50,956 nt of DNA, taken from Elusimicrobia bacterium GWA2_56_46 (GTDB taxonomy: Bacteria; Elusimicrobiota; Elusimicrobia; Elusimicrobiales; UBA9959). Made by a program: the position numbers and the translations under genes. Below, in pieces: positions 15,024 through 49,758 of this stretch (positions within the stretch are counted from its first letter, which is position 1; every line of letters begins with the position of its first letter). Location: contig MGTT01000014.1 of NCBI GenBank assembly GCA_001799575.1, positions 6,624 to 57,579 of the forward strand, read 5' to 3'. The notes beneath the pieces were generated by a model. The model was not told the origin of the DNA and did no database searches. It saw only the letters and a list, made by a program, of their open reading frames with translations.

Positions 15024-15071
15024 TTTACTATCCTGCGGCTCCCAACCCCAAAGCCATTAGCCCCGCATTTT

Positions 15072-15132
15072 TTGCAAAGAGAGCCAGGCTCATTTTTCTG
15101 CTGAAAAATAAGCCTGGCACCTTTGCCCGGCG
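15072..15132 (+). repeat. Hairpin core of the long interspersed repeat, partial copy
   Basis: This 61 bp segment is nearly identical to the terminal parts of the repeats at 22357-22526 and 49578-49758. It contains the stem GCCAGGCT...AGCCTGGC with ATTTTTC/GAAAAAT inside and ends CCTTTGCCCGGCG. Only this end of the longer element is present. Confidence 0.85.
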
Positions 15133-15155
15133 CTGCATTATCGGCGATTGAGGAA

Positions 15156-15729: not shown

Positions 15730-15995
15730 GTGCAGTGCGTCGCAAACAGTTTTACTTTTGACTGGCCGATTTTGGGCTACACCGAAGTGGCATGAAGCGA
15801 CATGTACTACACGTACTTTAGCGTAATGCCGCGAAGGTGTAGCCCAAAAGCGGCCAGCCCCCCGGGGGAGGCTCATCTTTGGGCGGCTGCTTCGTTGCTC
15901 CTCGCTCACAGACCCCCGGTATGCTCGTTCGTCGCGCCTCGCATCCACCTCAAATCTGAGCCTTCAAAAGTAAAGCTGTTTGCGACGCACTGCAC
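15730..15995 (-). mobile_element. MITE-like element, copy 1 (266 bp)
   Basis: The ends form terminal inverted repeats of about 32 bp beginning GTGCAGTGCGTCGCAAACAG, with one mismatch near the inner part. CTA flanks both sides (15727-15729 and 15996-15998), consistent with a 3 bp target duplication; the right-hand CTA is the pyrH stop codon on the minus strand. An internal long imperfect palindrome lies at about 15758-15867 (CTGGCCGATTTTGGGCTACACC pairing with its partner after the loop). No transposase is encoded. A second copy, in opposite orientation, is at 38599-38865. A 60-70 codon frame inside is probably not a gene. Confidence 0.9.
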
Positions 15996-22356: not shown

Positions 22357-22526
22357 GGAGGGTCGGCACCGACTAGCTGGAGGGGTGGCGGCCCGATGGG
22401 CCCCATGGCTGACAGGCCCCCGAACTTGCAGCGGTGCCGGAGACCCGACTGGGCTTCTCGCGGACTTGGCAAAGGAGCCAGGCACATTTTTCTGCTGAAA
22501 AATAAGCCTGGCACCTTTGCCCGGCG
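22357..22526 (+). repeat. Long interspersed repeat, full copy A (about 170 bp)
   Basis: The entire gap between the antitoxin stop and the convergent glyS stop consists of this element. It starts GGAGGGTCGGCACCGAC, contains CAGGCCCCCGAACTTGCAGC and ACCCGACTGGGC, and ends with the hairpin GCCAGGCAC...AGCCTGGC and CCTTTGCCCGGCG. A matching copy in reverse orientation is at 49578-49758, and the hairpin end alone is at 15072-15132. It may function as a bidirectional transcription end between convergent genes. Confidence 0.88.
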
Positions 22527-29606: not shown

Positions 29607-29623
29607 GATAAGGATAAAGGATT

Positions 29624-29685
29624 AAGGCTAAAGGATTAAGGAAAAATACGGAGAAGATGTAAAGATTTTTCCACCCTTTAGCCTT
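29624..29685 (+). terminator. Imperfect hairpin after khpB
   Basis: AAGGCTAAAGG (29624-29634) pairs with CCTTTAGCCTT (29675-29685), and inside it AGGAAAAA pairs with TTTTTCC. The stem is built from the degenerate word repeats. It could terminate the rpmH-khpB transcript, though no T-run follows the outer stem. Confidence 0.45.
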
Positions 29686-29862
29686 TATCCTTCATCCCTC
29701 ATCCTTAACCTGAATCCTGCAGTTGGAAGCGGTTTCCATAGGAAAATCAGGCGGACAGAATTATTCTGCAGGATTCCCCGCAAAGCGGGCGTCGGGCCCA
29801 GCGCTATGCGCGCCTGGCCCGACGAGGTGTATGCCTCCCGGAGGGCGCCCGCTATGCGGGCG

Positions 29863-38122: not shown

Positions 38123-38293
38123 ATGAATCCGGAGAACATCCTTAAAGCCGGTTCTAAGCTGGGTAAATTCCTCGGCAGCCGGGAATCGCGGCACAGGATA
38201 GACCACCTCAAAGCGGCTGTCTGCCCGACCAAAATATTCTACCTCTGGGAGAAGCGCGGCATCAAAAGAATCGAGCTTTTCAGCATGGAATAA
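38123..38293 (+). CDS. Small unrecognised protein within the dcw cluster
   Basis: 56 residues starting MNPENILKAGSKLGKFLGSR and ending in RIELFSME. A strong ribosome-binding site (AGGAGG) lies about 7 bases upstream, and the stop is 4 bases before the ftsL ATG, so the frame is tightly packed in the operon. The sequence is basic, has no signal peptide or membrane segment, and contains one cysteine (about residue 34) and a C-terminal IFYLWEKRGIKRIEL segment. I do not recognise the family. The position between rsmH and ftsL suggests a cell-wall or division role or a regulator (inference only). Confidence 0.7.
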   Translation: MNPENILKAGSKLGKFLGSRESRHRIDHLKAAVCPTKIFYLWEKRGIKRIELFSME

Positions 38294-38297
38294 CAGC

Positions 38298-38630
38298 ATG
38301 AGAAAAACAAGGACTTACAGACTGGCGCTGCTGGCCGCGGCCGGGGCTGTTTTCTTCACTTACGCCTGGGAGAACGTACAGGCAACCCGGCTCGGCTACG
38401 GCATCGAGGGCCTCCGCAGGGAGATCACCGACCTGGAGAACGCCAACAACTACCTGAAAAAAGAGATCCAGGTCTCGCTGTCTCCCGAAAAACTCCAGGC
38501 CGACGCGGCCAGGATAGGGCTTGTCTATCCGGAACCGGACGCCTTAGTCCTGTTGGACGGCGATGCAGGCGCTAAACCCTCAAAAGGCTGGCTTGCCAGT
38601 GTAGTGTCTCGCAAATGGCTTTGCTTTTGA
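38298..38630 (+). CDS. ftsL: FtsL-like division protein with transposon-derived C-terminus
   Basis: 110 residues. A short cytoplasmic start (MRKTRTYR) precedes one membrane segment (LALLAAAGAVFFTYAW) and a coiled-coil with leucine-like spacing (GIEGLRREITDLENANNYLKKEI), then a segment LSPEKLQADAARIGLVYPEP. This is the layout of FtsL, expected between rsmH and ftsI. Homology in this family is weak, so the name rests on topology and position. From residue 101 onward the codons (SVVSRKWLCF and the stop) belong to the MITE-like element at 38599-38865. The original end of the gene was therefore replaced or extended. Confidence 0.78.
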   Translation: MRKTRTYRLALLAAAGAVFFTYAWENVQATRLGYGIEGLRREITDLENANNYLKKEIQVSLSPEKLQADAARIGLVYPEPDALVLLDGDAGAKPSKGWLASVVSRKWLCF

Positions 38631-38865
38631 AGGCTCAGATTTGAGCTGGATGCGAGGCGCGACGAACGAGCATGCCAGCAGGCCTGTGAGTGAGGAGCAA
38701 CGAAGCAGCCGGCCAAAGATGAGCCTCCCCCAGGGGGCTGGCCGCTTTTGGGCTACCCCTTCACGGCATTACGCTAATGTACATGTAGTACATGTCGCTT
38801 CATGCCACTTCGGTGTAGCCCAAAATCGGCCAGTCAAAAGTAAAGCCATTTGCGAGACACTACAC
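38599..38865 (+). mobile_element. MITE-like element, copy 2 (267 bp)
   Basis: It is homologous over its full length to the element at 15730-15995, in the opposite orientation. Terminal inverted repeats of about 32 bp begin GTGTAGTGTCTCGCAAATGG; these differ from copy 1 at several positions, yet both ends of each copy changed together and still match each other. The left end lies inside ftsL. CCA flanks the left end and TAG the right, so no target duplication is visible. There is no transposase. A frame of about 75 codons resembles that in copy 1 but is offset by a one-base indel near its start. Confidence 0.9.
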
Positions 38866-38949
38866 TAGGATCTTACGATTCGGCAACCCCGAGATTTAAA
38901 CTAAAAACTTTAGCCTTTAGCCCTCATCCTTTATCCTTACTAATTCTCC

Positions 38950-40641
38950 ATGATCTCAAGAACCCTGAAAAGAAGGATCCGGATCTGCCTGCTTATAGCC
39001 GCCGTTCCGGTACCGCCGATCGCATTCCGCCTGTTTTACCTCCAGACCATCAGGCACGAAAATCTTTCAGCCGCCGCTTCCAGAGAATTCAACAGAACGG
39101 TTTCGGAGATCGGCCCCCGGGGCAGGATCTTCGATTCCCGGGGGAATCTCCTGGCGGAATCCATCGTCACCTGGAACTGCAGCCTGTTTAAAAAAGAGCT
39201 CCGGGATCCGGCGCGGGATCTGGACGCGCTGGCGTCCGCGCTCGCCCTTTCAAAAAAGGAACTCAAGGCCAGATACCGCAGAAGCAAAAATTTTGTAAGC
39301 GTAAAAAAAGACCTGGATCACGCCCAGGCCGAAGCGGTAAAGGCCCTGAAACTGAAAGGGGTGCTGCTGGAGGCCAGGCAGAACCGCTATTATCCCTCCG
39401 GCAGCATAGCCAGGAACATCCTGGGCCTTGTGGGCGCCGACAAAGGGCTCACCGGCGTGGAATTGCTTTACGAAAAAGTCCTCACCGGCCGGATCAGCCG
39501 CCGGGAAATAGTCCGGGATGCCGGCGGGAACGTTCTTTACCGGAACGGGGAAGACGGGGCGGCCGCGCCTATGGACATTCACCTGACCATAGACAAAAAC
39601 ATACAATTCTTCGCCCAGGAAGCCATCAAAAAGTACGCGGAAAAGAACCGCGCCGACCTCGCCATGGCGGTTATCCAGGATCCGGATACCGGCAGAATAC
39701 TGGCCATGGCTACCTATCCCGAAGACCTGGAAAAGATCCAGCCCGTGGAATGGGTCTATGAACCGGGTTCGACGTTTAAAGCCGTAACCCTCGCCGCCGC
39801 CCTGGAAAAGAACATAGTCACGGAGAAAGACTCCTTTTACTGCGAAAACGGCGCCTGGGCGCTTAACAGCAAGGTCACGATCCACGACCATGAGCCGGAG
39901 AAAACCCTGACGCTCTCCGGAGTGATGGAACGCTCGTCAAATATCGGCGCGGCCAAAATAGGGCTCAAACTGGGTCTGGAAAATTTTTATCTTTACGTCA
40001 AAGCGTTCGGTTTCGGCACCAGAACCGGGCTGGGCTTTCCTGGAGAATCTCCGGGCATCCTGCGGCCTATGGAAAGATACAGAACCGTGGATCTTGCGGT
40101 CGGCGCTTACGGCCACGGTATAGCCGCCACCCCGATACAGGTGGCGAACGCTTATTCCGCGCTGGCTAACGGGGGGCAACTGCTTGAAACCCGCCTTGTA
40201 GACCGGATCACCGACGGCAGCGGCAAGGCAGTCTTCCGGAACGAGCCCGCGGTCATCCGGAGGGTAATTTCCGGAGCCACAGCCGCGGCTGTAAAGCGGA
40301 TACTGTTAAACGTGGTTAACGCGGGAACCGGCAAGAACGCCGGAGTGCCCGGTTACCTCATAGCCGGTAAAACCGGCACTTCCAAAAAGATCGATCCCGC
40401 GACCGGAAAATATATCACCAATAAAAACGTCGCCTCTTTCTGCGGTTTTTTTCCGGCGGATAAGCCTCAATACACTATCCTGATCATTCTGGATAATCCG
40501 AAACTTTTTTATTACGGCGGCGAGACCGCCGCTCCGGCTTTCCAGGAAATAGCCAAAAAGATCATCACGCTCAACGGCATAAAGCCCGACAAAGTCCTGC
40601 TTGAAAGCAAACCGCCCCAGGCCGCTCCGGTGACGGACTAA
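38950..40641 (+). CDS. ftsI: Penicillin-binding protein 2/3, FtsI-type transpeptidase
   Basis: 563 residues. One N-terminal membrane segment (ICLLIAAVPVPPIAFRLFYL) is followed by the pedestal domain (RGRIFDSRGNLLAES) and the transpeptidase domain. Catalytic motifs are S274-T-F-K277 (EPGSTFKAV), S329-S-N331 and K474-T-G (AGKTGTS). It cross-links septal peptidoglycan with FtsW. No PASTA repeats follow, which favours FtsI over the sporulation-type protein. An 84-base gap of degenerate CCTTTAGCC-type words separates it from the mobile element, and no ribosome-binding site is obvious. Confidence 0.94.
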   Translation: MISRTLKRRIRICLLIAAVPVPPIAFRLFYLQTIRHENLSAAASREFNRTVSEIGPRGRIFDSRGNLLAESIVTWNCSLFKKELRDPARDLDALASALALSKKELKARYRRSKNFVSVKKDLDHAQAEAVKALKLKGVLLEARQNRYYPSGSIARNILGLVGADKGLTGVELLYEKVLTGRISRREIVRDAGGNVLYRNGEDGAAAPMDIHLTIDKNIQFFAQEAIKKYAEKNRADLAMAVIQDPDTGRILAMATYPEDLEKIQPVEWVYEPGSTFKAVTLAAALEKNIVTEKDSFYCENGAWALNSKVTIHDHEPEKTLTLSGVMERSSNIGAAKIGLKLGLENFYLYVKAFGFGTRTGLGFPGESPGILRPMERYRTVDLAVGAYGHGIAATPIQVANAYSALANGGQLLETRLVDRITDGSGKAVFRNEPAVIRRVISGATAAAVKRILLNVVNAGTGKNAGVPGYLIAGKTGTSKKIDPATGKYITNKNVASFCGFFPADKPQYTILIILDNPKLFYYGGETAAPAFQEIAKKIITLNGIKPDKVLLESKPPQAAPVTD

Positions 40642-49551: not shown

Positions 49552-49577
49552 ACTGAAGTTTGCGGAAGAATAGGTGG

Positions 49578-49758
49578 CGCCGGGGCAAAGGTGCCAGGCT
49601 TATTTTTCAGCAGAAAAATGTGCCTGGCTCTCTTTGCCAAAAGCCGGGCCAATGGACTTTGAGTTTAAGAGCCGCAAGATGCCCAGTCGGGTTTCCGGCG
49701 CCGCTGCCAGTTCGGGGGCCTGCGTCTCACCCCTCCAACTCGTCGGCGCCGACCCTCC
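49578..49758 (-). repeat. Long interspersed repeat, full copy B (about 181 bp)
   Basis: It is the reverse complement of the element at 22357-22526. It begins with the CGCCGGGGCAAAGGTGCCAG hairpin end, includes CCCAGTCGGGTTTCCGGCGC and TTCGGGGGCCTGCG, and ends GTCGGCGCCGACCCTCC. A stretch around 49640-49680 differs from copy A. It lies directly after the dehydrogenase gene. Confidence 0.88.

Follow-up and report, generated by a model that had tools for sequence, protein, structure and literature searches.

Copies of the MITE QMITE1 of Coxiella burnetii have been shown to overlap with the 3' termini of functional genes including ubiB, pntAA, mutT and nagZ, to which they contribute C-terminal residues, the stop codon or both while protein length changes little, and the core of QMITE1 has been described as conserved and its ends as variable (PMC5896051). 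Rickettsia palindromic elements, which are small palindromic repeats, form in-frame insertions in protein genes (PMC10969869). The locus described here lies in a window of 50,956 bp, the whole stretch of DNA that we analysed, from the draft genome (30 contigs) of an uncultured Elusimicrobia-group bacterium. Its features, and the other full-length copies of the element in this genome, are as follows.

38298..38630, + strand: ftsL in its present form, 110 aa, with the final 10 residues (SVVSRKWLCF) and the stop TGA derived from the element.
38597..38598, no strand: left copy of the TA target duplication, now CA, assigned from the empty-site reading and the TA borders of most other copies.
38599..38865, + strand: MITE-like element, 267 bp, with type A ends, folding as one long stem with side hairpins.
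38599..38630, + strand: left terminal inverted repeat, encoding SVVSRKWLCF and a stop in the ftsL frame.
38834..38865, - strand: right terminal inverted repeat, with one mismatch against the left.
38866..38867, no strand: right copy of the TA target duplication, from the empty-site reading.
38867..38899, + strand: displaced native ftsL end, AGG ATC TTA CGA TTC GGC AAC CCC GAG ATT TAA, reading RILRFGNPEI and stop.
38908..38938, + strand: degenerate tandem array with 4.4 copies of the 7-bp unit CTTTAGC, lying between the ftsL remnant and ftsI.
38950..40641, + strand: ftsI (penicillin-binding transpeptidase), the next gene of the operon.
15730..15995, - strand: the window's other full-length copy, flanked by the pyrH stop codon and the start codon of a SIS-domain (gmhA-like) gene.
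G000:C12:45356-45627 (L002 1501-1772): third full-length copy, supplying the mntP stop (...KILLV and stop).

In the dcw cluster, the gene that concerns us follows rsmH and precedes ftsI. Its provisional assignment as ftsL is supported by this position and by weak Pfam DivIC matches, the latter in relatives only: 13 of the 14 members of the FtsL alignment have such a match (best E 0.00012), and the window protein itself has none. A search for FtsL among solved structures found no relative. A small open frame of 56 aa is present at 38124-38294, between rsmH and ftsL.

The sequence-only reading of this DNA had proposed that a 267 bp element with a terminal repeat from 38599 supplies the end of ftsL, and that the frame closes inside the repeat after SVVSRKWLCF. 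Both proposals held, with the element spanning exactly 38599-38865 and the closing TGA at 38628-38630, within the left repeat, so that the present protein ends GWLA-SVVSRKWLCF at a total of 110 residues. That reading had also described an 84 bp repetitive gap at 38866-38949; the gap is there, but the opening 34 bp consist of the second TA and the displaced ftsL end, and repeat sequence is found only at 38908-38938. Pyrimidine-rich heptamer-like repeats (CTTTAGC/CCTTTAT) occur in the intergenic gaps at 38908-38938 and at 29612-29697, with 3 matches where 0 are expected.

MITEs are typically about 100-400 bp in length. At 267 bp the ftsL element is short, contains no transposase gene and is bounded by inverted repeats of approximately 32 bp that begin GTGTAGTGTCTCGCAAAT and differ at one position; the expected number of occurrences of its 18-nt repeat end in shuffled windows is 0.00. 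It is predicted to form a very strong hairpin, with folding much stronger than that of shuffled sequences (RNA z = -14, DNA z = -12). Searches of the element region found no promoter-like or terminator-like match, and Rfam gave a single chance hit, far below threshold. Most type A copies have TA at both borders, and the copy in ftsL has CA on the left and TA on the right; the target duplication is imperfect because its left copy reads CA, a T to C change that is synonymous, converting the Ala codon GCT to GCC. Read from the TA, the left end of the element gives in its three phases an immediate stop (TAG), V and stop, or SVVSRKWLCF and stop, and the right end gives a stop, V and stop, or SVVSRKWLYF and stop. 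Every frame at either end is thus stopped after 0, 1 or 10 codons, and insertion into any gene would therefore soon be capped.

The native end of ftsL is still readable beyond the element. The peptide RILRFGNPEI, followed by its stop, resembles KLLRLGSSEI, which with a stop ends the FtsL of an element-free relative from the same genus (G001, locus L037). When this tail from the relative was used as a query against all 101,846 33-mers of the window on both strands, 38867-38899 alone was top-scoring, and none of 200,000 shuffled versions of the gap equalled the score of the displaced tail. Deleting the element and one TA brings the sequence preceding the left target up against the right TA, as GGC TGG CTT GCT AGG ATC TTA ... 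TAA, and yields a continuous FtsL of 110 codons (GWLARILRFGNPEI and stop). With the native tail and stop directly past the element, and the empty site unbroken, the element therefore interrupted ftsL at a point ten codons short of its stop.

It had further been suggested that element-free relatives would show a native FtsL C-terminus and a short ftsL-ftsI gap, that the insertion was tolerated through variability of the FtsL C-terminus, that the element may affect ftsI expression, and that an absence of other genomic copies would tell against the reading. The relatives do have native C-termini and short gaps, of 54-160 bp in 14 relatives as against 319 bp here. The residues G97 W98 L99 A100 are invariant across 14 aligned FtsL sequences and those that follow are variable, to the extent that the FtsL of L040 (genus g3) ends GWLARLF; the insertion point lies directly after the last invariant residue, and the change in the protein is confined to the variable residues beyond GWLA, consistent with the suggested tolerance. 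Further copies are also present, two of them full-length, at C12:45356-45627 (91% identity) and at window positions 15730-15995 (90%), together with several partial ones, so that the element is dispersed in the genome as 3 full-length copies and a number of fragments.

From these comparisons we consider it very probable, at roughly 0.94, that an IS630-type MITE inserted in ftsL and replaced its tail and stop, leaving the native end beyond the element. This reading draws on the insertion site, the TA duplication with one copy mutated, the empty site, the element-free relatives, the sister copies and the stops in all frames, each read directly from sequence. A non-autonomous IS630-type MITE would have entered the TA at the Ala codon (GCT) with which the GWLA motif of FtsL closes; the TA would have been duplicated, and the ftsL frame would have met the terminal repeat in the sole phase that is open for ten codons. 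FtsL would thereby have lost RILRFGNPEI and gained SVVSRKWLCF and TGA, with the original tail and stop presumably remaining untranslated past the element. Mobilisation would have been in trans, by an IS630 transposase of a kind not found in this draft genome. The insertion was probably tolerated since the conserved GWLA and upstream regions were kept and the tail beyond is variable, and FtsL function may have been lost little or not at all.

A role for selection, in which the new FtsL tail or the hairpin tunes FtsL function or ftsI expression and was kept for that reason, is the strongest of the other explanations, although we think it unlikely. The present and ancestral proteins both have 110 residues, small or hydrophobic residues are preserved, with ASVV in place of AKLF, and the hairpin is very stable. 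The equal length is, however, set by the position of the first stop in the repeat, and entry in the same phase at the other end of the element yields a near-identical peptide, differing in one residue. The displaced tail is also intact, and the element region carries nothing resembling a promoter or terminator. Because the displaced tail is still intact, the data suggest that the insertion was a recent and perhaps neutral event.

Far less probable is an artefact of assembly or binning, in which misassembly of a repeat joined the element into ftsL. The draft is in 30 contigs and the element has two near copies, but these sister copies are 9-10% different, and a misjoin at a repeat would unite unrelated flanks, whereas the flanks here are of the same gene, frame and order, with TA on the right and a one-base variant of it on the left. 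Insertion immediately 3' of an ftsL whose end already lay elsewhere, with the reading into the repeat a coincidence, would accord with the many element copies that abut gene ends, but is barely credible when the native end and stop come straight after the element, continue the frame of the empty site and give the length expected.

Insertion of an IS630-type MITE also accords with the distribution of the ends. A search of reference genomes with the 19-bp end found matches in Elusimicrobia, Gallionellaceae, Nitrosomonadales and others; the interior differed in some of these (161 bp, in Gallionella/Gallionellaceae and Nitrosomonadales). On the Gammaproteobacteria contig L103, which stops within the transposase gene so that one element end is visible, 19 bp identical to the type A end are found roughly 20 bp away from the 3' terminus of an ORF, the peptide of which matches IS630-family transposases of the ISPsy32 group. 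The end of ISPsy32 itself, CTAGTGTACTGTCTCAAAAAT, is closely similar to the type A end. The type A ends are thus held in common with autonomous IS630 elements, by the one-end match at L103 and by similarity to ISPsy32. The relative G005 carries an IS630-type transposase fragment with an end adjoining CTAGTGTAGTG...CTTTACATTTG. Among the relatives, no pair of type A ends enclosing a transposase was found, and in the 30 contigs of the genome itself nothing matched NF033545, the ISPsy32 transposase or PF13358; the mobiliser is one that we infer, because no IS630 transposase was found in this genome. MITEs are not defined by a resident transposase, and may persist after their helper has been lost. 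Given the ends shared with L103 and ISPsy32 and no transposase found in its own genome, the element is therefore best read as a putative IS630-type MITE without a resident helper in this draft genome.

Matches to the element were found in 17 of the 40 relatives searched, all of the same family, and the element belongs to an apparent Elusimicrobiota-wide repeat family with ends that match IS630-family elements. All 3 of the full-length copies in the genome are at gene 3' ends (ftsL, pyrH and mntP). Same-genus relatives have only about 7-11 bp between pyrH and the SIS-domain gene, the interval occupied by the copy at 15730-15995. The ATG of the SIS-domain gene is 2 bp beyond the TA of this copy, and any ribosome-binding site of the gene would therefore be element-borne. 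With its element-derived stop, mntP is a few residues shorter than in same-genus relatives, and a native mntP tail, sought by eye beyond the element copy, was not clearly readable. An ORF scan into 126 element sides was mechanical and included shadow frames, and hence no rate is drawn from it. G005, which is of another genus, has at its pyrH locus (L203) a different IS630-type end (CAGTGTAGTGTCTCC...), about 23 bp past the pyrH stop; the same gene end appears to have received an insertion independently. A separate repeat family has three copies in the window, at 15030-15133, 22413-22526 and 49577-49722, which are 88-97% identical in parts.

The usual pattern in MITEs is for the ends to be conserved and the interior to be variable. 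In the present genome and its relatives, at least four different sets of terminal inverted repeats enclose recurrences of one structured core, about 200 bp long (loci L001-L010, L018-L035 and L140-L199), and this recurrence is a novel side-finding. In this genome by itself the core is found with four end types, starting GTGTAGTG, GTGCTCTGACC, GGAGCCGTGAC/GGAACCGTC and TATTGAGCC. Among 16 hand-picked elements, identity between types was 0.57-0.60 in the ends, close to the chance level (0.50-0.52 for shuffled ends), and 0.70-0.80 in the core. No transposase was found between paired ends of types C and D. A candidate pair of ends 3.7 kb apart (G007 C82) encloses ordinary genes, and hence is not a transposon. 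We tentatively propose, at somewhat less than even odds, that the core may be a conserved unit repeatedly fitted with unrelated terminal repeats, such that several TA-targeting transposases would mobilise a shared structured passenger across the Elusimicrobiota. If true, this would be the reverse of the usual MITE pattern. A conserved core with variable ends does have precedent, because QMITE1 has been reported alike (PMC5896051).

The survivability of insertions of this type may be of general interest. The element amounts to a ready-made 3' cap, as the TA and the repeat together stop every frame, and a TAA or TAG stop that receives the element at its TA once more reads TAG. At ftsL this provides a base-exact case in which a mobile element rewrote the end of a gene presumed to be essential, and because the ancestral end is still present, the cost of the change is directly measurable.

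In comparison with known systems, translation passes through Rickettsia palindromic elements, which contribute an internal peptide, while the ftsL element stops every frame at either end, cutting off the tail and replacing it. The IS630 insertion sequences of the ISPsy32 group and their MITEs share the TA target, and the ends here, (C)TAGTGTAsTGTCTCnnAAAT, are very similar to those of ISPsy32; the ftsL element differs in having no internal transposase, and an IS630 transposase was not found in this draft genome. A close published precedent is QMITE1, the copies of which likewise supply C-terminal residues and/or the stop of a gene. The mechanism is thus an ordinary one, since gene-ending MITEs that supply a C-terminus are already published for Coxiella. 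The present case differs from QMITE1 in element family and phylum, in affecting a core division gene of the dcw cluster, and in the displaced native tail still being readable, because of which the ftsL event can be reconstructed to the base. The new aspects here are the gene concerned, the phylum, and a record of the former state that is exact to the base.
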